Shown here: positions 4,944 through 46,554 of the stretch, in pieces
Layout: each line of letters starts with the position of its first letter
Position numbering within the stretch: position 1 is the first letter of the stretch
From: an uncultured Flavobacteriaceae bacterium
GTDB taxonomy: Bacteria; Bacteroidota; Bacteroidia; Flavobacteriales; Flavobacteriaceae
Assembly: GCA_947494565.1 (NCBI GenBank)
Contig: CANLVG010000006.1
Location: 248,001 to 312,000, forward strand
DNA length: 64,000 nt
Direction: 5' to 3'
Translations under genes and position numbers: made by a program
The notes under the pieces: generated by a model
The model's database searches: none
What the model was told of the DNA's origin: nothing
Seen by the model: the letters and a program-made list of their open reading frames with translations, nothing else

Positions 4944-4999
4944 TAAATATAATCGAATCACCCATTGCACTTAGGTTTACGAACTAGACAAAACCTAAA
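4944..4999 (-). promoter_or_regulatory. Promoter with TTTAG-N6-TCTAG activator-type site
   Basis: Read on the minus strand: half-sites TTTAG (4999-4995) and TCTAG (4988-4984) at an 11-bp period, then 32 nt, then the -7-like element TATATTTA (4951-4944), about 50 nt before the GH117 start. The same arrangement recurs before susC, the aldolase and the last sulfatase, which is the reason for calling it. Confidence 0.6.
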
Positions 5000-5014
5000 C
5001 AGTGACTAAAATCC

Positions 5015-6661
5015 CTATAGATTCGCGATGAACTCCTCAAGATTGACACTTCTTTCCAGCCCCATTTTTTTGCGCAGTCTATAGCGTGTGGTATGTACCG
5101 ATTCTACGGATATGCCCAGTAACCTTGCCATCTCCTTGCTTGAAAAATTGAGTTTGATCAGGGCGCAAATTTTTTGGTCTGACTGCGTGAGTTTCGGGTA
5201 CCGGGTAGTCACCTTCTTATAAAACGCTTCATTGACCGCGGTAAAACGAAGTTTAAACTCCTCCCAGTTGTTTTGGTTACTGGTCGATATCGACTTCAGG
5301 ACTTTATGGATTTCATCGGTTTTGATTTTGCCATCATTGCCTTTCAACGTACCCTTTAATTCTTTTAGAAATTCATCTTTTTCGACCAGTTGTAGGGCTG
5401 AGGTGGCCAATTCCTTGTTTTTTAGTTCTAGGAGTTCCTTCGCTTTTTGTATTTCCAATTCCTTGTTTCGTCTGATGAGTTCTTTTTCTATTTTATGTTT
5501 TGCACGGATCTGAAGAATATAGATGACGGCAATGATCAACGTGAATACCAAAGCGCCCAATAGGATGATACGTTGTAGAAAGGAGATTTTATCTTCTTGC
5601 TCTAATTGCTCTAGACGTTGCTTTTGAATGAGTTTTTCCTGTCGTTCTTTCTCGATCCGGTACTCATCCTTTATTTCTAAAAGGGGTTGGTTACCGGTAC
5701 TACGGCTATCAAAGAACTGGGCATCCAGTTCCTTGGCTTTCTTTTGACTGTAAAATGCCTTTTCAAAATCCCCTTTTTCAATAAAGAGCTGGGCTAAGCG
5801 TTCATGCACCAACACGGAAAAATCGACGTGGCTGTTATACTCGGCTGAAATGGCCAGGGCTTTTTGGTAGTAGTTCTCTCTTTGCCTCAGATCATCAAGA
5901 TTTCTGTAGATATCGCCCCAATAGGTATACACCAAAACCAGATAAGACGGGCGATGCTCTTGAAACCATGGTTCTATTTCATTGAGAATGGCTATGGCTT
6001 GATCGTTCTGTCCTTCCTGGGCCATAATAAAGGATTTTTCAAAATCCAAATAGGCTCGATCCAATTTATTCCTTTTGGAATCGTACTTCTGAAAGCAGCT
6101 ATCGAGGTAGATTTTTCCGATTTCGGGTTTACCCAATTCACGATAGGTGGCACAAATCAGATAATAGTTTTGGACCAACGATGCCTCATCTAACGCTCCT
6201 TTTTTTACCAATGATTTGTTCAGGGCCAAGGAGGTGTTCAAATATTCAAAAGCTTTCCCCTCCTTTTTGTAGAAACTATACAACCGGCCAAGGCGATCGT
6301 ATATCACTGCCTTAAGCGAATCGTTCTTCAAGTCATCTGCCAAAAAAAGCGCTAACCAAAGACCGTCATATGACTTGGCATAATCCACTTTTTGTCCGTA
6401 GTGGTAGGGCATTTCAAGCAGGGCGGCAATGGCATTCAAGGTATCTCCTTTCTTGAGAAAATCTTCATGTACTTTTTGCAGTAAGGTCACTGCCCGATCG
6501 GGGTTTTTAAAGCGAATGGCCTTGGCTTCATCGAAATATTCATCCGTGGTCAGTTCGCTCTGGGCATCTGTATTTTGAGAACTGGCGACCAATATGCCCA
6601 TGAGAAATGAACCCATAGTCAAAAACCGAACGACCGATATGCCATGGGCTGATCTTTTCAT
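5015..6661 (-). CDS. Membrane TPR regulator with C-terminal LuxR-type HTH
   Basis: A 548-residue protein. It has an N-terminal signal-like helix (to about residue 34), a helical TPR region to about residue 330, one transmembrane segment near 365-388 (IILLGALVFTLIIAVIYIL), a charged coiled-coil stretch, and a C-terminal LuxR/GerE helix-turn-helix (SSKEMARLLGISVESVHTTR). This layout is typical of Bacteroidota sensors that take a periplasmic cue and act in the cytosol. Its ATG overlaps the TGA of the upstream FG-GAP gene by 4 nt, so it is translationally coupled and belongs to the susCD operon. It is a candidate regulator of the PUL. The TPR face might bind a partner protein, but no ligand is evident. 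Confidence 0.8.
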   Translation of the reverse strand: MKRSAHGISVVRFLTMGSFLMGILVASSQNTDAQSELTTDEYFDEAKAIRFKNPDRAVTLLQKVHEDFLKKGDTLNAIAALLEMPYHYGQKVDYAKSYDGLWLALFLADDLKNDSLKAVIYDRLGRLYSFYKKEGKAFEYLNTSLALNKSLVKKGALDEASLVQNYYLICATYRELGKPEIGKIYLDSCFQKYDSKRNKLDRAYLDFEKSFIMAQEGQNDQAIAILNEIEPWFQEHRPSYLVLVYTYWGDIYRNLDDLRQRENYYQKALAISAEYNSHVDFSVLVHERLAQLFIEKGDFEKAFYSQKKAKELDAQFFDSRSTGNQPLLEIKDEYRIEKERQEKLIQKQRLEQLEQEDKISFLQRIILLGALVFTLIIAVIYILQIRAKHKIEKELIRRNKELEIQKAKELLELKNKELATSALQLVEKDEFLKELKGTLKGNDGKIKTDEIHKVLKSISTSNQNNWEEFKLRFTAVNEAFYKKVTTRYPKLTQSDQKICALIKLNFSSKEMARLLGISVESVHTTRYRLRKKMGLERSVNLEEFIANL

Positions 6662-9600
6662 TTTAGGGATGTCTTGACTTTAAAGAGATCATGCGTATCA
6701 TTATTGTTGGCCACCAGAACATACTTCGCCTTGCTTGAATTGAAGAGAACCATATCGCGCACATCCTTATCTGCAAAAAAGCCGGACTTCATAAAGGAGA
6801 TAGGCTGAAATTCTCCTTTGCCATTTCCCTTCAAGAAAGTGCCGATACCGGCATCTGATCGCGTGGTCTCTACCTCGGAATGATGATTATTTCCGGCCAA
6901 TAAGAGGTCTTTAAGACCATCACCATCAAAATCTTCGAATACGATACTGTTAACCGGCGACTGTTGTACGGCATTGTTAAAGGGAATAAAGGAAAAATCT
7001 TGATTGCCATTATTCAGAAAGATACCCGATCTAAACTCGGTGGCCTTGTAGTGCAATGCGGTTTCAAGTTCTTCACCTACAATGCCTTTTAAGTCTTTCG
7101 TGGCAAATTCATTGTAGGTCGGTATTTTTTGGGCGAGATAGGGCAGCTGTTGTGTCATACAGGTTTTTCCCCTGACAGGAACTTGCTTTCCCTGGTACTC
7201 CTTGGCGAGAATGATATCTTGCGAACCGTTGAGATCAAAATCAGAGGTATAGATTTCAAACGGTTTTTCCGGCGATGCGTGAAATTTATAGTTTAACCCC
7301 AAGTTACCAGCAATGATATCTTGGTCACCGTCATTATCGATATCGGTTACCTGAAGTTCGTTCCACCATCCGACCGCTTCTGATAAGGTGGTGTATTTAT
7401 CACTTCGGACCAGCTGGTTGTTTTGATTTAAAAAGACCTGTACGCCCATCCACTCACCAGTGATGACCAAGTCTGTTTTTGTATCGTTATCGAGGTCTAC
7501 CCATTGTGCATCGGTGACCAGACCGATGCTATTAAGCTGGGGAGCTAATCTGTCGTTTTGGACCGTAAACCGCCCTCCATCGTTTATGAGCAATAGACTG
7601 CTGGCCGGATGGGGATATCTTCCCGTAATGACCCGACCTCCTAAGAACAGGTCGATATCACCATCGTTGTCATAATCAGAAGGTACGATGACCGATCCGG
7701 CGATTCCGACTTCCGGAATCGCGTCCGCAGCTTTTTCAAAATTACCGTGGCCGTCATTCAAATACAATCGGTCGACCAACAATCGAGGATTCTCCATGAA
7801 CTCGTAGCTACCGCTTACGACATACAGATCATCATCTCCATCATTATCGGCATCGAAAAATGTAGCACCTACGTCTTCATACATTTTGTCTTTTGAGAAT
7901 GCATCACTGTTTAGCGGTTTAAAAGGACCTTTTTTGTTTCCTAAAAGTAGTTGCCCACTTTGATTGTGTCCACCCCCGATAAAAAGATCTTCCAAGCCAT
8001 CGCCATTAATGTCGCCTTTTGCTACCCCCGGACCGGTTTGGGATAATTTATGCGGTAGGAGTATTTGTATCGCATAATCATTAAAATAGGGGTCTTCGTG
8101 CAAAATTTGTGAATCGACTTTTTCAAATATTTTTTCATCGCTATGCGATACAACTGGTTCCGTTTCTTCAGCGAATTGATGGTTCATGAACAACCACTGA
8201 TTGGCCATCACATCTTCCAAGACCTGTACCTTGCCATCAGGCCATATGATTTCCATCTTTTTGGCTTTCAAATGTTTGCCCATTCCGAAATGCAGGTTAT
8301 TGGAAACCGATGATAAGAAACCACGGGTGTTGACCAAGGTTCTGACCTGTACGGAATCGTTTTCAAAATGTAGTTTTACTGTGGTTCCCACCCCATATTG
8401 ATTATCACGCGGACCATCTAGACTAACCCTGAGGTAATAATTACGCTCGTAAGGATTCATTTTGTGGTTTTCCAGGAGGGTGGCCTTGTCATTGATGTTG
8501 TTGACTAGCACATCAAGGTCACCATCGTTGTCTAGATCGGCATATACCGCCCCGTTTGAGAAAGTAGCCTTGTTGTCGGACCATTCGTCGGTTACATCTT
8601 CGAACGTTCTATCACCCTTATTTCTAAAAAAATAGTTTTGAAGTTTTTGTTGCGGAAGCATTTTGGCAAATTGAAGAAAATCTTCGTCTGTAGGCTTGCG
8701 TTGATTGGCTTTGAGTATATCAAGTGTCTCGGCGAGCATATCACGATCCATAACATCTCGGTACACCCCGTTGGTAATGAATAGGTCATTGAATCCATCC
8801 AAATCAAAATCGGCGGATAAGATAGACCAACTCCAATCGGTATCGGCCATTCCAGCCATTTTGCTTACTTCGCTGAACGTACTATTGCCATTGTTCATAT
8901 GCAGCATATTGTGCATGTATTGATGGTGATACCCCTCGTTGACCATCAATTCAAATTGCTCGATAGAGGTCATTGCCATGGTGGTCTTCGATCGCACGTA
9001 GTCTGCCGGATTCATATCCAAAGTCATCAAATCTAACAACCCGTCGTTATCAATGTCTGCCATGTCACTCCCCATGCTGTTGAATGACATATGCTTGAAA
9101 AACTGGTCTCTTGATTCTGTAAAGGAACCATTCTGGTTATTGATGTACACCAGATCCGGAACATTGAAATCATTACATACATAAATATCCGGCCACCCAT
9201 CATTATTTAGGTCACCGACCTGTGGATTAAGACCAAAACCAATATCGTTTTGTAGCCCTGCCTTTTTGGAAACATCGGTGAAATGCCCACTACCATCATT
9301 TTGATACAATCGATCACTTCCTTTGAGTTCTAAGGTCTTGGGGTCTTTCTGAATTTTTTCCAAATCCAGCACTTCTGTTCTACTGGTAATATCCGGTGTA
9401 TTGGAAACATAGGCATCCAAATCACCGTCTTTATCATAGTCAAAAAAGGTGGTCTGTATGGTACGATTTGCATCCGCCAGTCCCATTTCCTCCGCTTTTT
9501 CGGTGAAGGTTTCATCGCCATTGTTCATATACAGGAGATTAGCGAACTTATTATTGTCATCTTTCCATCCCCCTCGCGAAACATAGATATCCAACATACC

Positions 9601-10029
9601 ATCATTGTTGACGTCAACCATAGTGACCCCGGTGTTGAAGCCATCGTTGTGTATGATGCCCGCTTTCTGCGTTATATCACTAAATTCAAGACCGCCCCTA
9701 TTCAGGTACAGCTTATCCTCTCCTGAATTGGAGGTGAAGTACACGTCTACAAACCCATCTTCGTTAAGATCACCGACAGCAATACCTCCGCCAATGTAGG
9801 TATACATATATTGGTAGTAATTTGATTCTAGGGTCTCTTCCAAAGTATTCACAAAATCTATTTTTGATCGCTCTGGGGAAACTTCAGTGAACATTTTCCT
9901 TTGTGGATGTGCATTGACGCTACTCCCTTTTTTTGAACTCGATTTTTGACACGATTGAAAAAGAAAAAGGAGCAGTGCAAGGACCGGAAGAAAAAGTTTA
10001 GAAGATGGTGTTACTCTCTTATTGTACAT
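6658..10029 (-). CDS. FG-GAP/VCBS repeat lipoprotein with UnbV/ASPIC domain (CRTAC1 family)
   Basis: About 1123 residues from the ATG at 10029, which is followed by a lipoprotein signal (LFLFQSC). A longer frame opening with TTG at 10080 is possible but would bury the signal peptide. At least a dozen DxDxDG-like calcium loops (DLNEDGFVD, DYDKDGDLD, DLDNDGDLD, DADNDGDDD and others) mark two integrin-alpha-like beta-propellers, separated by an ASPIC/UnbV segment (RGFLSSVSNNLHFG...IIWPDG). Such proteins are common beside SusCD pairs. A surface glycan- or protein-binding role is inferred, with no enzymatic motif seen. It follows susD after a terminator-like hairpin and overlaps the TPR-LuxR start. 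Confidence 0.85.
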   Translation of the reverse strand: MYNKRVTPSSKLFLPVLALLLFLFQSCQKSSSKKGSSVNAHPQRKMFTEVSPERSKIDFVNTLEETLESNYYQYMYTYIGGGIAVGDLNEDGFVDVYFTSNSGEDKLYLNRGGLEFSDITQKAGIIHNDGFNTGVTMVDVNNDGMLDIYVSRGGWKDDNNKFANLLYMNNGDETFTEKAEEMGLADANRTIQTTFFDYDKDGDLDAYVSNTPDITSRTEVLDLEKIQKDPKTLELKGSDRLYQNDGSGHFTDVSKKAGLQNDIGFGLNPQVGDLNNDGWPDIYVCNDFNVPDLVYINNQNGSFTESRDQFFKHMSFNSMGSDMADIDNDGLLDLMTLDMNPADYVRSKTTMAMTSIEQFELMVNEGYHHQYMHNMLHMNNGNSTFSEVSKMAGMADTDWSWSILSADFDLDGFNDLFITNGVYRDVMDRDMLAETLDILKANQRKPTDEDFLQFAKMLPQQKLQNYFFRNKGDRTFEDVTDEWSDNKATFSNGAVYADLDNDGDLDVLVNNINDKATLLENHKMNPYERNYYLRVSLDGPRDNQYGVGTTVKLHFENDSVQVRTLVNTRGFLSSVSNNLHFGMGKHLKAKKMEIIWPDGKVQVLEDVMANQWLFMNHQFAEETEPVVSHSDEKIFEKVDSQILHEDPYFNDYAIQILLPHKLSQTGPGVAKGDINGDGLEDLFIGGGHNQSGQLLLGNKKGPFKPLNSDAFSKDKMYEDVGATFFDADNDGDDDLYVVSGSYEFMENPRLLVDRLYLNDGHGNFEKAADAIPEVGIAGSVIVPSDYDNDGDIDLFLGGRVITGRYPHPASSLLLINDGGRFTVQNDRLAPQLNSIGLVTDAQWVDLDNDTKTDLVITGEWMGVQVFLNQNNQLVRSDKYTTLSEAVGWWNELQVTDIDNDGDQDIIAGNLGLNYKFHASPEKPFEIYTSDFDLNGSQDIILAKEYQGKQVPVRGKTCMTQQLPYLAQKIPTYNEFATKDLKGIVGEELETALHYKATEFRSGIFLNNGNQDFSFIPFNNAVQQSPVNSIVFEDFDGDGLKDLLLAGNNHHSEVETTRSDAGIGTFLKGNGKGEFQPISFMKSGFFADKDVRDMVLFNSSKAKYVLVANNNDTHDLFKVKTSLK

Positions 10030-10120
10030 CGAAAAAGTGTCTGAATAGTAATGTTCTAAAATACGAATAATTAAAATCAAGGATGGGATCTAACCTTGCT
10101 TATTACATGAAGAATTGACT

Positions 10121-10155
10121 AAAAAAGCAAAGCGGTAAAGTATAAACCTTACCGC
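10121..10155 (-). terminator. Rho-independent-type hairpin after susD
   Basis: On the minus strand a 9-bp arm pair GCGGTAAGG / CTTTACCGC (one mismatch) with a 6-nt loop at 10155-10132 is followed by a T-rich tail containing TTTTTT. It lies 36 nt after the susD stop and before the FG-GAP gene. It would reduce transcription into the downstream genes rather than separate them, since no clear new promoter is seen. Confidence 0.6.
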
Positions 10156-10190
10156 CGTACTAAAACTAAAATAAACTAACTCAATTCTTA

Positions 10191-11804
10191 TTAATTCCCA
10201 AGATTTGGTAGCCTAGCTACTTCTCCTTCTGGAAGCGGTGCAAAGTAATTACTAGTGGATAGACCACCTAAAATCGGGTTTGAAGGAGCAGTAAGCGGTG
10301 TCGGTGTACCATTGCCATCTCCATCAAAAACGGTTCCTATAGAAACCCTTGGGTCTCTGGCGGTTCCACCTAAGGCCGCCTCGACTTGTTCTTTCCGTAC
10401 TAAATCGTTCCAACGCAGATATTCGCCGGCCAATTCCCATTTCCGTTCTTGGAATGCCAAGTCTTGAATGGTACCATCAGCTGCACTTACATCTGGAAGA
10501 CCTGCCCTGGTGCGTACGGCATTTAAGGCAGCCCATGCATCTGCTCCTGCGGATCCCGCTTCCCCTGAAGCTTCGGCATAGATCAATAATATTTCGGCAT
10601 ATCTCATAAAGTAATCATTTCTGTCACTTTGAAACCCTTGCCATGTGCCTTCCTCGAAAGGACCTACGATTTTTCGGAATACCGGATTTTGCTGATCCTT
10701 GAATTCTGTCCATGGTAACGAGTCAACGGGTGTGGTCGATGCATCGGAAATGATACTTCCGTCAGCGGCTAGAGGCATGGCTACATGATAGGTAGCATCT
10801 TTTCTTGGCCCTTCAGGAAAATCTTCAAAAAAGCGGATTTCGGCAAATGTCTCTTGCCAACCATTGGTCGGGGCACCGCTAGGAAGCCCTAATTTGCCAT
10901 GTTTACGATTCGCCAGACCACAAGGGGTACAATATGCAATGGTAAATAAAGATTCGGAATTGAACCTTCCGGCAATGGTATACAGACTGGCCATATCATC
11001 AACTAGCGCAAAACCATGTGCCCCGGCATTGTCCATGACTTGTTTCGCACTTGCCGCCGCCTCTGCATATTTACCAGCGTCTTTTACTGGAAACCCGGCC
11101 CAATCTAAATACAATCGAGCCAAAATAGCCCTAGCTGATCCTGCGTTCGGCCTTGAAGCCCCAACGTTTGTTGAAGTCGGAAGCAAAGATTCGGCCCGTA
11201 GCATATCGCTTTCGATTTGTTGATACACTTCTACTTGAGAGGCCAGTCCAATTTCTGGATCTACTTCAATGGAGAGGGGTAAGGGAATCCTACCGTGTAC
11301 ACGTGCCATTTGGTAGAACATCAATCCTCTTAAAAAATAGGTCTCTCCTGTAAATACATCTTGGGCTCCTTTTTCAGTCAACTCGACACCTTCTAAATTG
11401 GTCAGTACCGTGTTTGCCGCTAGTATCATCGAATAGACACCACGCCAGTTGGTGGCTGTTCTACCGTTGGATTGTACCACATTTCGTTGGTCGTATTCCC
11501 GGAAATCTGCCTTGTTACTGGCTCGGTGCGTGGTGATATCATCGCCTGACCAGCCATTGACATAAAAAGTGGTCATCCACGCCGCTGATCTTAACTGCCC
11601 ATAAATACCGTTTACGGCCAGTTCCAATTCGGCGATGTTATTGTAGGGAACAACGGCCAGTAATGCCTGAGTCGGGTCTTCTTCCAAATCAAACTGTTCA
11701 CAACTATTTATGGTCATGGAGAAAGCCAAGAGGCCCGCCATCCAGAGCTTCACTTTCATAGCGTTATAAAATTTCATTGTTTTCATATTTTGTATTTTTT
11801 TCAT
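10191..11804 (-). CDS. susD: SusD-like surface glycan-binding lipoprotein (RagB/SusD family)
   Basis: About 537 residues from ATG 11804. The longer TTG-started frame (11822) overlaps the susC stop and is less likely. A lipoprotein signal ends in TINSC. The body shows the SusD signature: an N-terminal TPR-like helical part (NNIAELELAVNGIYGQLR), the middle ARAILARLYLDWAG, and C-terminal FMRYAEILLIYAEA and WELAGEYLRWNDLVR. SusD proteins form the lid on the SusC channel and pass oligosaccharides into it. It follows susC directly, as in nearly all PULs. Ligand inferred as a red-algal galactan oligosaccharide from context. Confidence 0.95.
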   Translation of the reverse strand: MKKIQNMKTMKFYNAMKVKLWMAGLLAFSMTINSCEQFDLEEDPTQALLAVVPYNNIAELELAVNGIYGQLRSAAWMTTFYVNGWSGDDITTHRASNKADFREYDQRNVVQSNGRTATNWRGVYSMILAANTVLTNLEGVELTEKGAQDVFTGETYFLRGLMFYQMARVHGRIPLPLSIEVDPEIGLASQVEVYQQIESDMLRAESLLPTSTNVGASRPNAGSARAILARLYLDWAGFPVKDAGKYAEAAASAKQVMDNAGAHGFALVDDMASLYTIAGRFNSESLFTIAYCTPCGLANRKHGKLGLPSGAPTNGWQETFAEIRFFEDFPEGPRKDATYHVAMPLAADGSIISDASTTPVDSLPWTEFKDQQNPVFRKIVGPFEEGTWQGFQSDRNDYFMRYAEILLIYAEASGEAGSAGADAWAALNAVRTRAGLPDVSAADGTIQDLAFQERKWELAGEYLRWNDLVRKEQVEAALGGTARDPRVSIGTVFDGDGNGTPTPLTAPSNPILGGLSTSNYFAPLPEGEVARLPNLGN

Positions 11805-11811
11805 AGTTATA

Positions 11812-14800
11812 TTAAAACCCAACCTTTAAACCAATTGAAAGTGTTCTGGGGTTTGGATAGGCACCAATATTAATACCAGCAGCGGCATCTTCGTTTCCTT
11901 GATTATTAGTTCTTCTGGAAGTTGCTTCAGGGTCGTAGCCTGAGTAATCTGAAATCAAGAATAAGTTTTGACCACTAGCGTATATCTTTAGAGAGGTTCC
12001 TTCCAAGCCAGCGACATCTTGAATGGTGTAGCCTAGGGCCAAGTTGCTAAGCCTTATAAAATCACCTTTCTCCACATAGCGTGATGACTCGTATAAGTGG
12101 GCGAAGGCAGGGATGTCCGTCTCATTCGAGGCGGTCCAAGCGTTTACTTGGTCACTGGCCAAGAAGCTTCGAGAATCTCCAGCACCACCAGTGATACCAC
12201 CTTGCTGAATATTGTAGACATCAAATCCATGAACACCCTGAACGAAAACATTGAGGTCCCAGTTCTTATAATTGACAGAGTTGTTCCAACCCCACGTGAA
12301 GTCAGGGGTACCGTTACCAATGGCACCAAAGACGATCTGGTTGTCTTCGTCCAACAGGTATTTGGCATCACCAGGCACGGCCACTGGGTTTCCTTCTGAA
12401 TTCAACGGAATATCATCGGTTGTTTTCCAGGTACCCAGGAATGTCGCTCCGAAGAACTGACCTATGGGCTGTCCGACCTCAATTCCGTTAATGATGTTTC
12501 CTTGTCCCCCTGGAGCGGTAAATCGACCTTCAATACGCTCTAGTCCATCATAGAGCGAGGTAACCTCGTTTTTGACATAGGACATGGCGAAATTCGAATT
12601 CCAGTTCAAGTTATCAGTACTGATAATGTCATAACCGATGGTGAAATCGATACCGGTATTGTCCATCTCTCCTACATTACGACGAACCGTGATCTGTGAA
12701 TTGTTTCCACCAAAGGTATCGGGTAAGGCTACAGGTAAAAGAATATCCGTTGTTGTTTTTTGGTATCCCTCAACCGTAATGTTTCCACGACCATTGCTGA
12801 AGCCCAAATCAACACCTACATTAAACTGGCTTGTAGTCTCCCAGGTTAGATCGGGATTTCCGATTCTATTCAAACGGGTACCTGCTGTTGCTGAACTGCC
12901 ATCAAAGGCATAGCTATTAAAGGCCGGGGTGGTAAACGTATCGAAAGGATCTACATTCTGATTACCCACCTGTCCCCAACCTGCTCTTAGCTTTAAACTA
13001 CTAATGGCTTCTGAATCGCCAAGCATGTCATTAAAGCTGTAGGCCAATGCTACCGAAGGGAAAAAGCCCCAGCGGTTTTCTTCTCTAAATACGGAAGAGG
13101 CGTCATAACGACCAGTGGCGGTCAGAAATAGATTGTTATCTAAAATATACTCCGCACGAAGCATGAACGAAGATAATTCTCTTGGGGCAAAACTATTATT
13201 CACGGTTTGCCCAGAATTTGGGGCCAATTCCGCGAAATAGAAATTCTTGCCATCCAATGTTAAGTCATTGGCATTGTAACCATTAACTATACGTTTAGCA
13301 TTAGTATATTCCTGAACTCCGGTCAATTTGATGTCGTGCTTTCCAAACTCTTTTTGCCATGTCAGGATATTGGTCAATTGAAAAGAGGTGAATTTATCGT
13401 TGCTGAATGAAGTATGCGGCAATTGGTCGTCGCCTACTTCCACCGCATATCGCTGTACATTGAAGTTGTTCAACTGCGAACCCAGGGTCATTGAATACGA
13501 CAGGTTGTCGGTAATGTCATATTTTAGGTTAAGTGCCCCGTTCAATCGCTCATTGATGTCACGAATGTCCGTATCCATTAAGGTCCTGACCGGATTATCA
13601 TTCAATGAGGCTATACCTTTTAATGATCTAATGTTGTAATTGCCATCCGCATCGAATACCGGTGTTGTAGGATCCCAAGTCAATGCCTTATAGATAAAGC
13701 TACCTTGCCCGTTGCCAAATCGTTGTACATTGTTCTTTAGTTCGGCCCGGATAGCAAAAATATTCAACCCCACCTTGAGTCTGTCGGAGACTTGGGCATC
13801 GATATTGGAACGAACTGAAAGTTGTTGTAATCCGGTGTTGATAACCACACCTTCTTCATCCCGATAATTACCGGATAGGAAATAACTCAGTTTTCCCTCT
13901 GAACCGCTAGCCGAAATCTGTAAATTCTCGCTTATTCCGGTTCGCAACAATTCATCTTGGTAATTTGTCCCTCCATTTGCAGCCAAATTAGAGATTTCCG
14001 CATCGGAAAAAATAGGACTCCCACCCGTTTGTGTTCTTCTTAGGTTTTCGATTCTAGCAAACTCATCGGGATTATCTGCCAATGTCGGTAAAAATCTTGG
14101 TACACTAGAGATAGTTGTAAAGAAATCAACACCTATCCTACCTTTTCCTGAGCCTCTTTTTGTTGTAATGATGATTACCCCGTTTGAACCTCTTACCCCG
14201 TAAATCGCAGTTGCCGATGCATCTTTTAAGATGTCCATGGTTGCAATGTCATTCGGGTTGATAGTGGTGAGGTCCGCACCTTGTATTCCGTCAATAACCA
14301 CCAACGGGCTATTATCACCTTCTATGGAGTTGATACCTCGAATACGTACTTTGATCGCTCCACCTGGCTGTCCGTTCGCTCGGGCTACAGTTACACCGGC
14401 AGCTCTACCTTGTAAGGCTTCTTCAACCCTTGTGACCGGTTGATCTTCAAAGGCCTCGGTGGTTACCCTTGAAACAGCACCGGTAAGGTCACTTTTCTTG
14501 GCCGTTCCATAACCGATAACGATTACCTCATCTAATTGACTGGCATCCTCCGCCAATTGAACGTTGATTGTAGTTTGATTTCCAACGGTGACGTTTTGTG
14601 TTGCGTAACCTAAGTAGGAGAAAACAAGTACGGCATCAGATGGGACATCAATGGTGAAATTACCATCAAAATCGGTTTGCGTACCATCTGTAGTACCCTG
14701 CACAACAATGTTCGCACCCGGTACGGGTCCCCCAGTCTCGTCAGTTACTGTTCCTGTAACCGTTTGCTGTGCCATAGCGCTTTGCATACTCAAAAGCACT

Positions 14801-14862
14801 AAAAACAGCCCTGTCAGGAAGCATTGTTTTAAAAGTTTGAAGAATTGTTTTTTCATAATCAT
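11812..14862 (-). CDS. susC: SusC-like TonB-dependent oligosaccharide transporter
   Basis: A 1016-residue outer-membrane receptor with a signal peptide (ending SAMAQQ), an N-terminal carboxypeptidase-D-regulatory-like domain (about 33-110, VTGTVTDETGGPVPGANIVVQG), a TonB-box-like DEVIVIGYG, a plug domain (LQGRAAGVTV...VRIRGINS...IYGVRGSNGVIIITT) and a 22-strand barrel ending in GLKVGF. This is the standard SusC architecture for energy-dependent import of glycan fragments. It is the first gene of the susC-susD-FG-GAP-regulator operon and is preceded by a double copy of the PUL promoter motif. Confidence 0.95.
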   Translation of the reverse strand: MIMKKQFFKLLKQCFLTGLFLVLLSMQSAMAQQTVTGTVTDETGGPVPGANIVVQGTTDGTQTDFDGNFTIDVPSDAVLVFSYLGYATQNVTVGNQTTINVQLAEDASQLDEVIVIGYGTAKKSDLTGAVSRVTTEAFEDQPVTRVEEALQGRAAGVTVARANGQPGGAIKVRIRGINSIEGDNSPLVVIDGIQGADLTTINPNDIATMDILKDASATAIYGVRGSNGVIIITTKRGSGKGRIGVDFFTTISSVPRFLPTLADNPDEFARIENLRRTQTGGSPIFSDAEISNLAANGGTNYQDELLRTGISENLQISASGSEGKLSYFLSGNYRDEEGVVINTGLQQLSVRSNIDAQVSDRLKVGLNIFAIRAELKNNVQRFGNGQGSFIYKALTWDPTTPVFDADGNYNIRSLKGIASLNDNPVRTLMDTDIRDINERLNGALNLKYDITDNLSYSMTLGSQLNNFNVQRYAVEVGDDQLPHTSFSNDKFTSFQLTNILTWQKEFGKHDIKLTGVQEYTNAKRIVNGYNANDLTLDGKNFYFAELAPNSGQTVNNSFAPRELSSFMLRAEYILDNNLFLTATGRYDASSVFREENRWGFFPSVALAYSFNDMLGDSEAISSLKLRAGWGQVGNQNVDPFDTFTTPAFNSYAFDGSSATAGTRLNRIGNPDLTWETTSQFNVGVDLGFSNGRGNITVEGYQKTTTDILLPVALPDTFGGNNSQITVRRNVGEMDNTGIDFTIGYDIISTDNLNWNSNFAMSYVKNEVTSLYDGLERIEGRFTAPGGQGNIINGIEVGQPIGQFFGATFLGTWKTTDDIPLNSEGNPVAVPGDAKYLLDEDNQIVFGAIGNGTPDFTWGWNNSVNYKNWDLNVFVQGVHGFDVYNIQQGGITGGAGDSRSFLASDQVNAWTASNETDIPAFAHLYESSRYVEKGDFIRLSNLALGYTIQDVAGLEGTSLKIYASGQNLFLISDYSGYDPEATSRRTNNQGNEDAAAGINIGAYPNPRTLSIGLKVGF

Positions 14863-15449
14863 TGGTTTAAGTTGAAATAGTTCTGAGTTAAAAAATATTT
14901 TTAGGGTCGGTTCTTTTTGTTGAAAAATAGTATGGTATTCTTAAATTTTTACCACTTGAATGTTGATTCCGCAATTTGATTTAAGTAAAACTAAGAATAG
15001 TGCATCACCATAATAAAAATCGCACTAGACTAAAACTAGACAAAGGCGACAGTCCGCTGATTTTCTAGAATTTTAACATTTTCGAGACATCATTGACAGC
15101 ATTATTGACTTTCGCGGTGTTAGAATTTAACATTGTTTGTATGTCATTCGTTATTCAATACATTTAGTGTACCTAGACAATTCGATAACGTACACCAACA
15201 AATGTGATGAACTTTAATCCGGTACCAGTGAACAAATGGTTCCTAGTGTATTACAAATGATTTTAATATTGCTTTAACAAAAAATATCCTCTTGAAATGT
15301 TCTTTTTCATTAAAGTGGCTATGTTCGACTGTTTAAAATTAGCGAGTAGTATCTGTTTCAAATGAACTGCCATTAACCAATGGTGGCACTATTTTAACAA
15401 GGGAAATGATCGGCTTTGGTGGGTAGGTGTCGAAATGTACTAGAAGTGA
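14863..15449. other. Intergenic region between GntP permease and susC
   Basis: 587 nt, AT-rich, with no credible gene on either strand. It holds the susC promoter (14986-15043) and an isolated extra CTAGACAA word at 15173-15180 that has no matching -7 element at the usual distance. The remaining part, 15190-15449, shows nothing I can name. The susC leader downstream of the proposed promoter is about 120 nt. Confidence 0.6.
14986..15043 (-). promoter_or_regulatory. susC promoter with tandem TCTAG half-sites
   Basis: On the minus strand, TCTAG (15040-15036) and TCTAG (15029-15025) are exact repeats 11 bp apart, then 31 nt, then TAGTTTTA (14993-14986), a -7-like element. This is the most perfect copy of the motif, placed before the transporter operon that usually responds most strongly to substrate. 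Confidence 0.6.
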
Positions 15450-16745: not shown

Positions 16746-16752
16746 TTATTCC

Positions 16753-18303: not shown

Positions 18304-18318
18304 GCTGTGGTATTTCAA

Positions 18319-20184: not shown

Positions 20185-20294
20185 AACGCTTGTTAGAATT
20201 GAATTATATGGTTTCCCTCTTCCAATGTAAAATAGGTATTTCCTTTTGTTTCTTTACTTAAGATGACATTATTGATCAAGATTGAAGCCCTTGA

Positions 20295-20307
20295 CTCGAT
20301 AATCGAG
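20295..20307. promoter_or_regulatory. Palindrome CTCGATAATCGAG, copy 1
   Basis: A perfect 13-bp palindrome about 110 nt before the sulfatase start at 20184. With its flanks (TTGA on the left, GTTTATAAT on the right) it is nearly the same as the copy at 27078-27090, which suggests an operator. Confidence 0.5.
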
Positions 20308-20406
20308 GTTTATAATTGATTGCGGTCAGGCAAATAGTATTGGCGCCTGCGTCGATTCACTAAGACCGTTCCCTTCAATTACCACGCAAAATTGCCATGT
20401 ATTGCT

Positions 20407-21495: not shown

Positions 21496-21515
21496 GGTGC
21501 TTTGATGATGTGGTC

Positions 21516-22187: not shown

Positions 22188-22211
22188 ATTCTTGTTTTAC
22201 TATTTGTATTG

Positions 22212-22267
22212 TAAATGTATCGTTTCGATGGGAATTTGCTTCATTTGTGAACTCGACAAAAACTAAA
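22212..22267 (-). promoter_or_regulatory. Aldolase-kinase promoter with TTTAG-N6-TCGAG site
   Basis: On the minus strand TTTAG (22267-22263) and TCGAG (22256-22252) at an 11-bp period, then 32 nt, then TACATTTA (22219-22212), about 25 nt before the aldolase ATG. One base of the second half-site differs from the other copies. Confidence 0.6.
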
Positions 22268-22294
22268 TGTTGCCCTTATTTGGCCTATAATATC

Positions 22295-23731: not shown

Positions 23732-23745
23732 AATTGTCGTTGTTT

Positions 23746-24885: not shown

Positions 24886-25009
24886 TGGTCAGGTATTAAT
24901 GGAGCGAATCCGAGAAATTAAAATTAGAAAAGGCATTTGAATTACATTGAACCATATTTATCTGTGGCTAACCTTATTTTAACACTAATTGCCATGCATA
25001 TAAGCAGGT

Positions 25010-25897: not shown

Positions 25898-25907
25898 CTG
25901 TTAGATT

Positions 25908-27090: not shown

Positions 27091-27103
27091 ATTTAAAATG
27101 CTC

Positions 27104-27186: not shown

Positions 27187-27190
27187 TTAT

Positions 27191-28309: not shown

Positions 28310-28410
28310 TTGTTTTGGTTTTAAAATTAGTTGTATTGTCAAAATTTCACCGGCTTCTAAAACCAGTGAGATCTAGAACTTGTGTACTGGCAAATGCGGT
28401 TATTCAGCTC

Positions 28411-29646: not shown

Positions 29647-29652
29647 TGGTGA

Positions 29653-29961: not shown

Positions 29962-29963
29962 AT

Positions 29964-31175: not shown

Positions 31176-31207
31176 TATTATTTCAAAACAAGTAATCGAT
31201 TTTGTTC

Positions 31208-31240
31208 AATACATATGCTATTCTGTTTAAAATATGTATT
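31208..31240. promoter_or_regulatory. Inverted repeat in the divergent P450/AraC promoter region
   Basis: Perfect 8-bp arms AATACATA (31208-31215) and TATGTATT (31233-31240) separated by 17 nt, in the only region that can hold promoters for both the P450 operon and the AraC gene. Arm centres are 25 bp apart, a distance that suits a dimer. The region is AT-rich, so chance is not excluded. Confidence 0.4.
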
Positions 31241-31269
31241 TTTAAGAATTTCTTCAGATGTAATAGTGT

Positions 31270-32109: not shown

Positions 32110-32120
32110 GGTCATCACCC

Positions 32121-36765: not shown

Positions 36766-36787
36766 ATGGTTTATGCGTATTGGTGGT

Positions 36788-38890: not shown

Positions 38891-38897
38891 AAACAGT

Positions 38898-40322: not shown

Positions 40323-40452
40323 AGTCTCTATGGTTTCAAAAGTACCGTTATCGTTTTTCTTCGAATTTGCAGGAATTATCTGGAGCTAACTCTATTTTAA
40401 CCCAAAAAACAATTATGGAACCCCAGAAGGGTAAAATACAAAGCTCACAGGC

Positions 40453-41733: not shown

Positions 41734-41756
41734 GGGTTTGTTTTATAAGAGGTTAG

Positions 41757-41828
41757 CTATTTTTTCGGACTATTTTCCTTTGGATTAATCCGCTGTTGAA
41801 AATACACATCGGGTTCGTGCCAAATCGT
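41757..41828 (-). pseudogene. C-terminal relic of another GH117 gene
   Basis: On the minus strand, 23 codons followed by TAG read TIWHEPDVYFQQRINPKENS..., matching the C-terminal end of the intact GH117 next door (VVHSPEVYLQQGLSKKQRKL...). The frame is closed by a stop a few codons upstream, so only the tail remains. It sits between the GH117 start and the flavinylated-protein gene, as expected for a deletion or recombination that removed an older paralogue. Confidence 0.6.
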
Positions 41829-41867
41829 ATTTTATAACTTTAAAGTTCTTCAATGTTCCGTAATTTT

Positions 41868-42953
41868 CTACTTTGATTCCTCAAGAAAACCCATTACCAA
41901 ATAGGAGTAGGTTTCATTTTTAGAATTCGCAAACTCCAAAAGGTTGTTTCGTATTTCAGCGCTCATTTTTCCTTTGTCGAACAAGTGCCCTAAAAAGGTC
42001 TTTAACTGGTTCTTGCTCATTGAACCAAGCTGTTGGGAAAGTATATCAAATACATAGTTCGGTGCATTGTTTACCGCTTTCAACAATAAACTTCTACTTC
42101 CAGAATCGACCTTATCAAAGGCCTGCCAAAAGGGCCTTTGTAGCTCTGGAGCATCATTATATTTAGAAATCAATCGTTTGGCGATAATGCTTCGAACCAG
42201 GGGAGTACTCGTTTTAAAAGCGAGGGCAATCTGCTCGTAATGTTCTTGGTATTGTGGTACACTGAATTTTTCCAAGGCAAAGAGTTGATACTCATCATTG
42301 CTACTATAAAGCATAGCAACCAGCATTTGCTTATTCAAAACCGATATCGTGTTCGCCTTAAGCTGCGCTTGAATCTCTCCATGAACCAAGTGCCATGCCG
42401 TATAACAGGAATATAAGGCTCCTGAAACAACGGCTTCCTTAACTTGGGTAATGGTGGCACCGGAAATGGCGTCAACCCCATTTACCGTTCTCATTGTTGG
42501 CTTTTCAACCAGTTGGTCGATTGTTCGGCGACCTAAAGGGCTTTTGTCATCATTTAAAAGACGATGCAGTTTTTGATAGTCCTCTTCTTCAAAGACATCA
42601 TGGTCGTGTTTGGTCAAAGGCATCATGGGGTATCGGTCAAATCCGGCGTACTCGCCTAACAACGTCCAATAGAATTTCATGTTCATCAGTTTGCATTCGC
42701 CATCTGCACAAACAGGGGTGGCTATATCCGCTGTGTACAATATGGGTGCTTTTTTTTCATCGACCAATGCAAACACCTCTTGCCGGCCGAAGGAATCTAT
42801 CTCAATAAAAAAATCTGTTGGTTCGTGATGCAATCTTGTACCTTCTTTCCACTCGAGCACAAAGTATTCCGGAGGACTATCCATGACCTCTTTCGGAATT
42901 GGACGGGTTCCGGAAAGTAGACCTACTAAAACCAGAAAAAGGAGGGTTCTCAT
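41868..42953 (-). CDS. Exported protein with FMN-transfer (ApbE) motif and helical C-terminus
   Basis: 361 residues with a short signal peptide. In the first half, D161-A-I-S-G-A-T167 fits the Dxx(S/T)GAT consensus at which ApbE links FMN to threonine in FMN_bind proteins, so T167 is the predicted flavin site. Two cysteines (C82, C87) lie earlier. From about residue 205 on, the protein is helical and HEAT-like (LVRSIIAKRLISKYNDAPE, SLLLKAVNNAPNYVFDIL). The start overlaps the stop of the FAD oxidoreductase gene by 4 nt. I infer an extracytoplasmic flavin electron carrier for that enzyme. The fold assignment rests on the motif alone. Confidence 0.6.
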   Translation of the reverse strand: MRTLLFLVLVGLLSGTRPIPKEVMDSPPEYFVLEWKEGTRLHHEPTDFFIEIDSFGRQEVFALVDEKKAPILYTADIATPVCADGECKLMNMKFYWTLLGEYAGFDRYPMMPLTKHDHDVFEEEDYQKLHRLLNDDKSPLGRRTIDQLVEKPTMRTVNGVDAISGATITQVKEAVVSGALYSCYTAWHLVHGEIQAQLKANTISVLNKQMLVAMLYSSNDEYQLFALEKFSVPQYQEHYEQIALAFKTSTPLVRSIIAKRLISKYNDAPELQRPFWQAFDKVDSGSRSLLLKAVNNAPNYVFDILSQQLGSMSKNQLKTFLGHLFDKGKMSAEIRNNLLEFANSKNETYSYLVMGFLEESK

Positions 42954-44746
42954 TTTTTCGATTCTGGAATTTTTTCAAATTTTTGTCGTTCGATCAGGGC
43001 CAGATACTCCTCTAAATAACCCGTATAGATTTCTCGGGGGTTGACGTCGTACTTTTTGCACAATGCCGCAGCAAAACCCACCGCGGCCCCCATTTGTCCG
43101 GTTGTGCGCATGACCCGTGGACCACCGAGTCCCGCATGCGAGCAACTGAAATTTCGCCCGGCCATAAATAAGTTCGAAATGTTCTTGGAATAGAGACTGC
43201 GATAGGGAATGTAGTATTGCGGTGTCTTGTAGAACAACGCCTCGGAAATAAAATCGGGATTTTCTTCATCTTCCAAAACAGTCTGGTAGTGAATATCCAC
43301 ATCGCGAACCTCGATAACGACTCCATCAGGAAACTTACGCCCTTCTTTGGCATCGTTGAAGGTGAAGATATGGTCACCGACCAAGCGTCGTGATTCGCGT
43401 TTTCCGACAAGGGAGGAAACCCACTCCAACTTTCGCTTGCTATTCAATGAATCTTTTTTGGCATTGGCGAACGAGCCGTAAATCGCACGTAACATATGGT
43501 CTCGAATATCTTCGGTATCATCGATTTGATTGTGGTCGGGACTACTGAATTCCCATTGCCACTCTCCGGCGACCCTTGCATATTTTTTTGCTACGGGCAT
43601 GGCCCAGGGAACATCAGGAAATTCTTGTGCTACCTCTGTCTCCTTTGAACCCCACAGTACGGAAGACCCCATAACCGCATCATCGGGTTCGGTCGGGGTC
43701 CATAGTTCACCATGTTCTTCCCAGGTTTCGCCGTAGGTTTCGGAGCTCTCGCGCCCATAGTTGAATTCCGCACCTGCCCAAAAACCGATCCATCCGTCAC
43801 CGGTGGAATCTACAAAACGGGGCGCGGTAAAACGAATGCGATGACCAGTGGCGGTATGTCTGGCATCGACATATTGAATTGAATTATCTTCGGCTTTTGC
43901 GTCGTATGCCCTGTGGTTTAAAAATAGATCGATGTTCTTATAACTCTTTACGTTGTCATCCCTTTTTTTCTGATCTGCTTTCGCTTCGGCACTTCCATTT
44001 GGATAGTGCTCCGTATCCAATTTCTTAAGAATACGCTCAAAATTCCCATAGATACCCAAGGTATGTACACGAATCTCTTCACTGGCATTTCCGCCCAAAA
44101 CCGGTCGATCATGAATCAAAGCCACTTTGAGTCCCTCTTCCGCCGCCGCTATAGAGGCGGCACATCCAGCGATTCCCCCTCCGATGACTACCAAGTCATA
44201 CGATTTGGTCAATGATGGAGCATTCGGTTCAGCTTTTACTTTCTTGCGCCATTCAACTAACTTTTTGAATGCCGAGGGCGGCTCTTCGTATTTTGTTGAA
44301 AAATAAATGGCATCGCACCTACCATCGAATCCGGTGAGATCCACCAGTTCTATATCGATTTGCTTATCGGTGATGCCCATTTTATCGACATATTCCCAGC
44401 CCCAGCCGGAACGGAGCCCTAATACCTTATCTAGTGTTTTTTCTCCTATTTTCAGCTGAAATTGGCCAGGGGCCTCCCAATCACCGGGGACCCAGTTTTT
44501 TGTACGGACCCAGATATGATATTCCCCTGGTGATTCAAACGACACCTGGGTTGTGGCATTTTGTACAGGCTCACCGATACCATGGGCCAATAAATACGGT
44601 GATCCCATTTGCTGCTCGAATTGTGGGTCAATGGTCCACCCTCCAGGATTGTCGAAACTCTCAGCTTCGACTAGGAGGTCTTGACCGATGAGACGGTTCA
44701 TTCCCAGTAGGACACAAAGAAGGGTTATGTAGTGAAGTGTTTTCAT
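42950..44746 (-). CDS. Exported FAD-dependent oxidoreductase with N-terminal beta-sandwich domain
   Basis: 598 residues from ATG 44746 (a TTG at 44767 gives only seven extra residues), with a signal peptide to about residue 22. Residues 25-150 look like a carbohydrate-binding-type beta-sandwich (LLVEAESFDNPGGW, GEYHIWVRTKNW). An FAD Rossmann fold follows (YDLVVIGGGIAGCAASIAAA, 183-202) with GNASEEIRVHTLGIYG, and DSTGDGWIGFWAG and FMAGRNFSCSHAGLGGPRVM towards the end. This is the FAD_oxidored (PF12831-like) family often found in PULs but without a known reaction. An oxidation or reduction of the algal glycan or a released sugar is inferred. Confidence 0.8.
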   Translation of the reverse strand: MKTLHYITLLCVLLGMNRLIGQDLLVEAESFDNPGGWTIDPQFEQQMGSPYLLAHGIGEPVQNATTQVSFESPGEYHIWVRTKNWVPGDWEAPGQFQLKIGEKTLDKVLGLRSGWGWEYVDKMGITDKQIDIELVDLTGFDGRCDAIYFSTKYEEPPSAFKKLVEWRKKVKAEPNAPSLTKSYDLVVIGGGIAGCAASIAAAEEGLKVALIHDRPVLGGNASEEIRVHTLGIYGNFERILKKLDTEHYPNGSAEAKADQKKRDDNVKSYKNIDLFLNHRAYDAKAEDNSIQYVDARHTATGHRIRFTAPRFVDSTGDGWIGFWAGAEFNYGRESSETYGETWEEHGELWTPTEPDDAVMGSSVLWGSKETEVAQEFPDVPWAMPVAKKYARVAGEWQWEFSSPDHNQIDDTEDIRDHMLRAIYGSFANAKKDSLNSKRKLEWVSSLVGKRESRRLVGDHIFTFNDAKEGRKFPDGVVIEVRDVDIHYQTVLEDEENPDFISEALFYKTPQYYIPYRSLYSKNISNLFMAGRNFSCSHAGLGGPRVMRTTGQMGAAVGFAAALCKKYDVNPREIYTGYLEEYLALIERQKFEKIPESKK

Positions 44747-44754
44747 TTCGTATG

Positions 44755-46446
44755 TTAATCGTTCCAATGTGCGTCGATCACTTTTTGTATATGTGGATAG
44801 TTTGCGTCGGTTTCATTCAGCTCTTCACGTAGCGTAATGAGCTGTCGCTTTAGATCGGCAATGGTATCGGTATATGCTGGGTCTTCGTAAGCATTGTTCA
44901 TTTCCTTCGGGTCTTTTTTCAAATCGTAAAACTCCCAAGCGGGAGGCGTGTGGTTGGTAAAGTCGTTACCCCAGCTCTCCTTATTCCAGGTGGCCTTTGG
45001 ATCATCGGTATCGACCCAGTATTTGCCATAATAAAATATCAGTTTATAATCTTTGGTACGTACACCAAAATGCGCAGGATTTTGATGGCGGTGGGCCAAA
45101 TGCATCCAATAGCGGTAATAGGTGGCCTTTTGCCAATCTGCGGGCTCGTTACCGGTTTCTAAAATGGTTTTGAAACTTTTTCCTTGCATATACTCTGGGG
45201 TTGTTCCACCAGCCAATTCGATCATCGTAGGGGCGAAATCAGTATTGTTGATGATGGCATCCGTGCGGCTAGCTGCTTTGATTCTTTCAGGGTAGCGTAC
45301 AAAGAAGGGCATTCGCATCGATTCATCGTACATCCAGCGTTTGTCGATATAATCATGTTCGCCAAGCATAAAGCCTTGGTCGCCGGTATAGACGATGATG
45401 GTGTTTTCAAGAAGATTTTCTTCCTTCAGGTAATCCAACAGGCGTTTGATATTGTCATCGACCCCCTTTACGCAGCGCAAGTACTTTTTTAAATAATCTT
45501 GATAGACTTTACTGGTATAGTTTCGTTCTTCCTCGTCCATTTGCCATTTCACATATTCTTCCGGTTTGATATCCCGTGCATTTCGGTATTGTTTATAAAT
45601 GGTACTGTCATTCCAATAAATATTCATGGCCTGGTTTCGAATGACATTTCGATGGGAGACCGATGAACCCACAATTCGCGTTAATGAATCATTGGTGCCC
45701 CGAATGGCTTCGGAACCATGGTTTCCGATAGCATACAGACTTTCAGGCTCGGGGATAAACGTATCCGCAAGATAGTCCTCATAGCGCGGGGCATATTCGA
45801 AATCATCATGGGGTGCCTTAAAATGATGCATCAAGAAAAAAGGTTGATCGGGATTCCTTTTATTTTTGAGATAGTCCAGGGTAGCATCCATAATCATATC
45901 GGACGAATGCCCCTTGGTTTGAACCACGTTTTCCGGCCATGGATTTTCACCTTGGACCCGGAATTCGGGATCATAATACTTTCCCTGTCCGGGCAATACC
46001 TGATAGAAATCAAAAGCGGCAGGTTCATGATGTAGATGCCACTTACCGACAATGGCGGTCTGATAGCCTAATTTCTTCATTTCCTTTGGAAGGAATTGTT
46101 TTTCCGGAGCAATCGCCCCTTCTAAATCCAATACCCCGTTGGTCTGTGCCCGTTGACCGGTGATAATGGCCGCTCTACTCGGAACACAAATAGCATTGTT
46201 CACGAAAGCGTTGTCAAAGATCATCCCCTCTTTGGCAAGTGCATCGAGATTCGGCGTCGGATTTAGTGATGCCAATCTGCTGCCGTAGATCCCAAAGCCT
46301 TGCGTAGTGTGATCATCTGACATGATGTAAATAATGTTCGGTTTTTGGGAACGGGCTTTTTCTTCTTCTTTTCCATCACAAGAAATAAAAAGGAATACGA
46401 GTGCCACGCTAAAAACGATAGTAGAAGCGATGGATTTGATTTTCAT
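44755..46446 (-). CDS. Cys-type sulfatase (S1_16-like) lipoprotein
   Basis: 563 residues with lipoprotein signal (VFLFISC). NIIYIMSDDHTTQGFGIYG, C87-V-P-S-R91 followed by TGQRAQTNGV, GKWHLHHEP, and VYTGDQGFMLGEHDYIDKRWMYDESMRMPF give a complete type I sulfatase. The wording resembles the S1_16 group, which includes galactose-4-sulfatases. It is the first gene of the long operon running down to 32121 and is preceded by a PUL-type promoter. The target sulfate position is not determined. Confidence 0.9.
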   Translation of the reverse strand: MKIKSIASTIVFSVALVFLFISCDGKEEEKARSQKPNIIYIMSDDHTTQGFGIYGSRLASLNPTPNLDALAKEGMIFDNAFVNNAICVPSRAAIITGQRAQTNGVLDLEGAIAPEKQFLPKEMKKLGYQTAIVGKWHLHHEPAAFDFYQVLPGQGKYYDPEFRVQGENPWPENVVQTKGHSSDMIMDATLDYLKNKRNPDQPFFLMHHFKAPHDDFEYAPRYEDYLADTFIPEPESLYAIGNHGSEAIRGTNDSLTRIVGSSVSHRNVIRNQAMNIYWNDSTIYKQYRNARDIKPEEYVKWQMDEEERNYTSKVYQDYLKKYLRCVKGVDDNIKRLLDYLKEENLLENTIIVYTGDQGFMLGEHDYIDKRWMYDESMRMPFFVRYPERIKAASRTDAIINNTDFAPTMIELAGGTTPEYMQGKSFKTILETGNEPADWQKATYYRYWMHLAHRHQNPAHFGVRTKDYKLIFYYGKYWVDTDDPKATWNKESWGNDFTNHTPPAWEFYDLKKDPKEMNNAYEDPAYTDTIADLKRQLITLREELNETDANYPHIQKVIDAHWND

Positions 46447-46498
46447 AAGGTCGGTTGTTTCACTTGTTCAAGCTGATCGGTATATGGATAATGCTGTT

Positions 46499-46554
46499 TA
46501 AATATAGCGAAAGTATGACACGATAATACCTATTCTTACTAGACAATAGCTCAA
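46499..46554 (-). promoter_or_regulatory. Promoter of the sulfatase-FAD-GH117-GH127-GH16 operon
   Basis: On the minus strand TTGAG (46554-46550) and TCTAG (46543-46539) at an 11-bp period, then 32 nt, then TATATTTA (46506-46499), 52 nt before the sulfatase ATG. The second half-site, the spacing and the -7 element equal those before GH117. The first half-site is the weakest copy. Confidence 0.6.

Follow-up and report, generated by a model that had tools for sequence, protein, structure and literature searches.

A direct-repeat promoter site in a flavobacterial galactan locus and its likely activator, a predicted membrane-spanning TPR-LuxR protein

Two classes of polysaccharide-locus activator described in Bacteroides offer the nearest comparison for the arrangement analysed here, in which four promoters share a pair of directly repeated heptamers, 11 bp apart, and a promoter box at a set distance from them. 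The promoters lie in a 64,000-nucleotide stretch of DNA, hereafter the window (C6:248001-312000, on contig CANLVG010000006.1 of assembly GCA_947494565.1), from the 5.39-Mb genome, in 45 contigs, of an uncultured Flavobacteriaceae bacterium. In the sections of PMC3878776 drawn on here, the SusR-like proteins are likewise Bacteroidota-specific locus activators, with periplasmic sugar binding, a C-terminal helix-turn-helix (HTH), direct-repeat sites and frequent linkage to susCD. A LuxR-type protein of the window has the same order of periplasmic sensor, membrane helix and C-terminal HTH, its topology being predicted. The predicted SusR-like repeats are, however, 67 or 77 bp apart (PMC3878776, same sections) rather than 11 bp, and SusR-like long-spaced repeats were rejected for the four sites, none of which has a second dyad above 9 bits at either distance. 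The hybrid two-component systems (HTCS), as described in the same part of PMC3878776, are likewise periplasmic sugar sensors with direct-repeat operators, but they carry AraC-type DNA-binding domains and their repeats are about 21 bp apart. The combination of histidine kinase, receiver and AraC-type HTH that characterises them was not found in the window protein by Pfam, and its candidate sites have the 11-bp period.

The HTH of the window protein resembles those of NarL/LuxR-type proteins such as EsrB and SsrB, although it is joined to a TPR and membrane architecture instead of the N-terminal receiver of NarL-type response regulators, which is absent. NarL sites are usually inverted heptamers, whereas the heptamers of the window are direct. 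Escherichia coli MalT, a soluble ATPase that governs the maltodextrin regulon, combines a TPR-like sensor with a LuxR-type HTH and direct-repeat sites; compared with MalT by description, the window protein has a signal peptide, a membrane helix and no Pfam ATPase domain, and the Pfam TPR_MalT model matches it below the cut-off. Within open-access titles and the opening lines of abstracts (subscription papers and supplements lying outside this scope), we found no published site of this form, in line with the original prediction, and no TPR-LuxR regulators described for loci of this type. In PMC5613140 neither LuxR nor TPR turned up in a word search, and the part of that paper searched contains no operator.

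The window holds a galactan locus with GH43-clan, GH16 and GH127 enzymes, sulfatases, a 2-keto-3-deoxy-6-phosphogluconate (KDPG)-type aldolase and kinase, a P450/ferredoxin/reductase set, susC-susD, an FG-GAP/ASPIC protein and three regulators. Its aldehyde dehydrogenase and enolase-type genes resemble dauA and dauB, the dau labels denoting resemblance to a published pathway. The GH16 protein is a weak match to the kappa-carrageenase model, scoring 58 bits where the cut-off is 350, and the gene at 3678-4895, previously labelled GH117, is assigned by Pfam to GH43. The four composite sites and their downstream genes are as follows.

Site 1, dyad GTTTAGG-TTTT-GTCTAGT: 4983-5000, minus strand, before the GH43-clan gene
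Site 1, -7 box TATATTTA: 4944-4951, minus strand, predicted +1 near 4939
GH43-clan gene: 3678-4895, downstream of site 1
Site 2, dyad GTCTAGT-TTTA-GTCTAGT: 15024-15041, minus strand, before susC
Site 2, -7 box TAGTTTTA: 14986-14993, minus strand, predicted +1 near 14981
Gene run susC-susD-FG-GAP/ASPIC-LuxR: 5015-14862, minus strand, downstream of site 2
Site 3, dyad ATTTAGT-TTTT-GTCGAGT: 22251-22268, minus strand, before the KDPG-type aldolase gene
Site 3, -7 box TACATTTA: 22212-22219, minus strand, predicted +1 near 22207
Site 4, dyad GTTGAGC-TATT-GTCTAGT: 46538-46555, minus strand, before the sulfatase heading the long operon
Site 4, -7 box TATATTTA: 46499-46506, minus strand, predicted +1 near 46494

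All four sites are intergenic on the minus strand, 80-178 bp upstream of the next gene start, and their positions and letters agree with the original prediction. The half-site pairs TTTAG/TCTAG (4999), TCTAG/TCTAG (15040), TTTAG/TCGAG (22267) and TTGAG/TCTAG (46554) are each 11 bp apart. The distance to the box is 37, 36, 37 and 37 nt when counted from where the second half-site starts and 32, 31, 32 and 32 nt when counted from its end, as had been claimed. Site 1 has a third half-site, TTTAG, another 11 bp upstream (5010-5006). A second box before susC, TATTCTTA at offset 30 (14999-14992), is less conserved; the conserved box is TAGTTTTA at 36. In the sections of PMC9723704 drawn on here, the element TAnnTTTG was mapped at -12 to -5 in Flavobacterium psychrophilum, and with TAnnTTTG so placed the heptamers fall at about -61 to -55 and -50 to -44. 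The window boxes keep a fixed distance but end in A where the sigma-A element has G, and the +1 positions are predictions. The sequence supports the proposal of a four-promoter regulon in which the repeats are direct and spaced by one helical turn, their distance to a putative Bacteroidota -7 box is fixed and their position is activator-like.

The composite pattern T[CTG][TG]AG-N6-T[CTG][TG]AG followed after 24-32 nt by TAnn[TC]TTA has four matches in all on the two strands of the window, precisely at the four sites. Matrices built from three sites ranked the omitted one first (second for 46554) among 127,962 window positions, training sites apart. A broad matrix reached 24.1 once in 60 windows shuffled in 50-bp blocks (mean maximum 13.0), which keeps the score of any one site from being decisive. 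The loose pair TBKAGN5GTCKAG matches 18 times genome-wide, and so does its backwards control, yet among these 18 it is only at the four sites that a TAnn[TC]T[TA] box follows at 36-38 nt (one further match, L082, has it at 35). Half-sites alone are therefore cheap and half-sites at a set distance from a box are not, the pair by itself showing no enrichment in the genome. Two other patterns were tried: TNNAGTNNNNTNTNNAG, with half-sites 12 bp apart and an extra fixed T, gave 195 matches against 388 in controls and was dropped, and a relaxed 20-mer with three mismatches gave six own-genome matches against four in the control and recovered three of the four sites, missing 46554.

The motif is conserved before orthologous genes in other genera. 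For the comparison we used 80 loci surrounding dauB-like relatives, together with longer stretches from ten more genomes, in collections with one genome per species (G201/G005 and G067/G007, with identical coordinates, are apparently the same genomes). Away from the start codon, no invariant block is longer than TGTCTAGTT...TCTAGT in the seven aligned regions upstream of susC (the window and six genomes), and the TTT in the -7 box does not vary either. The aldolase promoters of G002 and G003 keep ATTC[AG]GTTTTTGTC[GT]AGT with TAAATTTG at 37, and site 3 is weaker in G004 and L003. Before the sulfatase gene, TATATTTA is kept in four aligned genomes, the dyad being intact in the window and G002 and altered in its first half-site in G007. 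A site also directly follows the LuxR gene in G002, G003, G004, G005 and G007, where in G002 and G004 it precedes an extra gene of about 840 codons. A matrix from the four window sites only places its best or near-best matches before susC and after LuxR in closer genomes, and in some genomes before the sulfatase or aldolase gene.

The refined site was then counted over relatives, leaving aside 19 loci fetched by the motif itself unless stated otherwise. The LuxR and locus stretches, 0.84 Mb in all, have 55 distinct sites scoring 15 bits or more, and 51 of these are intergenic (61 of 65 with motif loci), against 10.2% of bases. The consensus of the 57 non-window intergenic sites, motif loci included, is TGTYYAGT-TTTT-GTCTAGT. 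A TAnn box, which played no part in site selection, begins 36-38 nt after the start of the second TCTAG in 24 of 47 non-window sites, in 15 at exactly 37 (27 of 57 and 18 with motif loci); at every other offset between 15 and 59 the count is three or fewer. Among 175 occurrences of GTC[TAG]AGT, 35 are paired at 11 bp, and none of the other distances from 7 to 29 accounts for more than three. The strict pattern GTYYAGTWTWTGTCTAGT gave 19 matches in 14 of 397 family genomes (control, one), although it was written after the locations of nine of the 19 had been seen; none falls inside an open reading frame (ORF) of at least 100 codons, an ORF on the same strand lies within 600 bp of 16 of them, and 11 have a box at 36-38. 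The ten unseen matches lie in eight genomes, seven of which belong to the 27 that carry a strong LuxR homolog (p 2e-8). Scanned across the phylum, the strict pattern matched six times in 4 of 395 genomes, with none outside the family; the match in G557 lies between a divergent ORF whose linker resembles that of LuxR and a second ORF resembling GH2, both judged by eye, and that in G644 looks like chance.

Among the regulators of the locus, one belongs to a family that tracks the motif.

Proposed regulator: 5015-6661, minus strand, 548 amino acids with signal peptide, TPR domain, one transmembrane helix and LuxR-type HTH
Tyr527 codon in the recognition helix: 5081-5083, minus strand, Tyr/His co-varying with the fourth base of the half-site heptamer

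A strong homolog of this protein (E 1e-100 or better) occurs in 27 of 397 family genomes, which include 13 of the 14 with the strict motif; in the remaining one, G134, a homolog of 32% identity lies 0.5 kb away from the site. Dyads of at least 15 bits were sought within about 1.5 kb of LuxR genes, the own locus excluded and reversed flanks serving as control. They were found at 7 of 9 loci with 60-100% identity (control 2), 8 of 17 with 45-60% (control 0), 10 of 14 with 36-45% (control 0) and 1 of 12 below 36% (control 0). In 37 other dau loci (0.74 Mb; they include L026, with a 28% LuxR paralog), four matches reached 15 bits, none with both half-sites intact. The original prediction had named three candidate regulators (25010, 31270 and 5015); the LuxR-type protein at 5015 follows the motif and the two AraC proteins do not, and the LuxR-type candidate itself stands as a predicted membrane-spanning TPR sensor, not as a soluble LuxR protein.

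This TPR-LuxR protein has hydrophobic stretches at residues 7-28, resembling a signal peptide, and about 358-389, a predicted transmembrane helix. A single-sequence AlphaFold model, used only for helix order at its mean predicted local distance difference test score of 68, places TPR helices at 39-317, a long helix at 325-426 and the HTH at 493-547, within a LuxR-type HTH extending over 487-548. At E 0.001 the Pfam search returned only TPR models, a sigma-70 region-4-type HTH and a sub-threshold DUF, with no kinase, receiver or ATPase domain. Membership of the LuxR/NarL-type superfamily is indicated by a GerE-type C-terminal HTH: GerE matches 16 of 18 homologs (best E 1.1e-5) and Sigma70_r4_2 all 18, and the profile of the 18 matches EsrB (E 1.9e-4), although the window protein alone scores 20.0 bits against GerE, below the 23.5 cut-off. 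This architecture would place a periplasmic sensor and a cytoplasmic DNA-binding head on either side of the inner membrane. The gene of the protein follows susC-susD-FG-GAP without a large gap; G002-G007 have the same gene order, as do G018 and G405 when judged from the sizes of their ORFs. Since the regulator belongs to the susC gene run, site 2 probably drives its transcription, which from the gene order would make a self-activating loop.

Further evidence comes from residue 527, which lies within the HTH helix 519-532 of the AlphaFold model at a position that we take to match the base-contacting lysine of NarL. With the fourth heptamer base made neutral, a site of 12 bits or more was present in 34 of 41 loci with homologs of at least 36% identity, the stretches scanned being about 1.5 kb on each side of LuxR (20 kb for L165, L166, L174 and L189). 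The base in the first half-site is A for 1 of 22 Tyr527 regulators and 9 of 11 His527 regulators (Fisher p 1.3e-5) and in the second for 0 of 22 and 5 of 11 (p 0.002), one further regulator having Ser; these values ignore kinship, and the fair count is two independent shifts. The tree of the 41 proteins has at least three Tyr/His changes, two of them accompanied by a site shift: the base in the first half-site is A for seven of the eight proteins of one His clade, and in the His pair L189/L174 both bases are A. G405, the third genome of the L189/L174 type, has GTCAAGTTTTTGTCAA before a susC-like ORF.

The site, its spacing and conservation, its association with the LuxR family and its co-variation with residue 527 can be read by comparing genomes, and from them we infer binding, activation, topology, ligand and positive feedback. 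Taken as a whole, this comparison makes it very likely that the four sites are operators of the locus-encoded TPR-LuxR activator, and we tentatively propose the following mechanism. The protein would be a one-component activator predicted to span the inner membrane, whose TPR domain may sense a galactan oligosaccharide, or a partner that binds one, from the periplasm. Its cytoplasmic HTHs would bind the two direct heptamers GTYYAGT-N4-GTCTAGT on the same face of the helix, at about -61 to -44, and so adjoin sigma-A RNA polymerase on a TAnnTTTG-type box. The genes activated would be the susCD gene run, including the regulator, the GH43-clan gene, the KDPG-type aldolase and kinase genes and the sulfatase operon.

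Several observations weigh against this assignment, as do the kinship among the regulators and the timing of the strict pattern given above. No box lies at 36-38 in 23 of the 47 non-window sites, 14 of the 27 LuxR genomes have no strict match, and 7 of the 41 homologs of at least 36% identity have no site of 12 bits in the stretch examined. Site 3 has been lost in L008 and has no equivalent in L005 and L009, and G006 retains only the second half of site 4. The His regulator L180 keeps TCTAG in its best site, with GTCAAGT in its second and third, and a strict match in the own genome, at C6:236000, has neither a box nor a same-strand gene.

The dyad might instead be read by one of the AraC proteins of the locus. 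For AraC1 (25010), a single monomer could contact two sub-sites one turn apart, and an 11-bp direct repeat suits AraC geometry. AraC1 is encoded in the locus and is the probable counterpart of Zobellia CgrA, whose deletion slows growth on carrageenan according to the sections of PMC5698469 drawn on here. Of the 15 genomes searched, only 8 nevertheless have an AraC1 ortholog (at least 71%), and G008, G012, G013 and G017 lack one although the motif is kept there near LuxR (as GTCAAGT in G017). Just 3 of the 14 strict-motif genomes have one, and the adjoining dauB-like gene has a different conserved 11-bp-period element, GGTTAAAATAAGGTTAG; we regard AraC1 as an improbable binder. AraC2 (31270), equally an AraC-family protein of the locus, seems still less plausible, to the point of being nearly discounted: its orthologs (at least 57%) occur in 6 of 15 genomes, the motif-bearing G003, G007, G008, G012 and G013 have best matches of only 35-43%, and the intergene between AraC2 and the P450 gene has its own conserved block and no dyad. 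The motif thus outlives the loss of either ortholog, and the suggestion that an AraC protein binds it was rejected.

An unlinked regulator whose distribution happens to coincide with TPR-LuxR loci is a reading that appeals to co-occurrence being correlation and to sites that lie, in G034, G387, G351 and G101, on contigs other than those of the strong LuxR homologs. Sites are nonetheless found beside LuxR homologs of as little as 37-42% identity whose neighbours differ, and two independent changes at residue 527 are accompanied by changes in the site, so that we consider such a regulator unlikely. It is hardly credible that the dyad needs no specific activator, as an upstream promoter element or a pattern due to chance would not: the equal counts of the loose pair and its control in the genome speak for this, but cross-genus conservation, association with LuxR genomes, the intergenic bias, the preferred spacing and the few, incomplete matches in the 37 comparable dau loci speak against it. 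The TPR-LuxR protein is therefore the reading we retain.

Probable targets of the two AraC proteins are other promoters in the locus, those of dauB and the P450 operon. Upstream of the dauB-like gene and directly downstream of AraC1 (about 24915-24985, minus strand), the 11-bp-period element GGTTAAAATAAGGTTAG...GATAATTACC is kept in most of nine aligned sequences, though not in G006, and is by this conservation a candidate AraC1 operator. The divergent AraC2/P450 intergene (31176-31269) has a block conserved in five genomes, with no TCTAG dyad, which is a candidate AraC2 operator for the P450 operon.

The Zobellia carrageenan regulon has pathway enzymes in common with the window, the AraC regulator CgrA and, in a figure legend, LUXR-like genes; the sections of PMC5698469 drawn on here report no operator. 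There, anhydrogalactose induces dauA and dauB (log2 5.6 and 5.2) but dauD and dauC not significantly (0.4 and 1.2), carrageenans inducing all four (PMC5698469). By analogy, this split fits a separate promoter at the position of site 3, between the dauA-like and dauD-like genes. Zobellia susCD also responds to anhydrogalactose (4.3 and 4.2; PMC5698469, same sections), which a simple two-signal split does not explain. The Zobellia locus is apparently only distantly related (DauA at 52-53% in G018, G405 and G253, whose identification as Zobellia is a guess). In the same three genomes (G018 C13, G405 C10 and G253 C1; L217, L219 and L220), a paralogous TPR-LuxR gene lies beside another susC-like ORF, whose promoter has the variant code GTCAAGTTTTTGTCAA.

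Other dyads were seen outside these loci. The orphan strict dyad of the own genome (C6:236000-236017; L159, L197) precedes the window by 12 kb and has on one side a gene run that includes a Rieske/glutamate-synthase-type protein and on the other a DUF5107-TPR gene; with its -7 box absent and no gene on its strand, it was rejected as a fifth regulon member. Two strict dyads in G034 C3 (L191 and L204) are near-identical and separated by 1.5 kb, and no ORF was found downstream of them. In G134 C30 (L221), divergent dyads at 8371 and 10390, with boxes at 38, surround the distant 32% homolog, so the code may extend beyond the main family.

To our knowledge, the DNA target of the regulator is unknown for most marine polysaccharide loci. 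We think it probable that TPR-LuxR proteins form a third class of Flavobacteriaceae polysaccharide-locus activator beside the SusR-like and HTCS classes, with a family-wide direct-repeat code in which residue 527 sets the fourth base. That code would be GTYYAGT-N4-GTCTAGT with TAnnTTTG 36-38 nt after the start of the second TCTAG, Tyr specifying T, C or G and His specifying A. A division of labour is suggested in which the membrane sensor would serve uptake and desulfation genes and the AraC proteins the anhydrosugar and methyl-galactose steps. Because site, promoter geometry, candidate regulator and specificity residue come together, regulons, including genes far from the locus, may be predicted from sequence; if the code holds, they would become readable across many loci and substrates.

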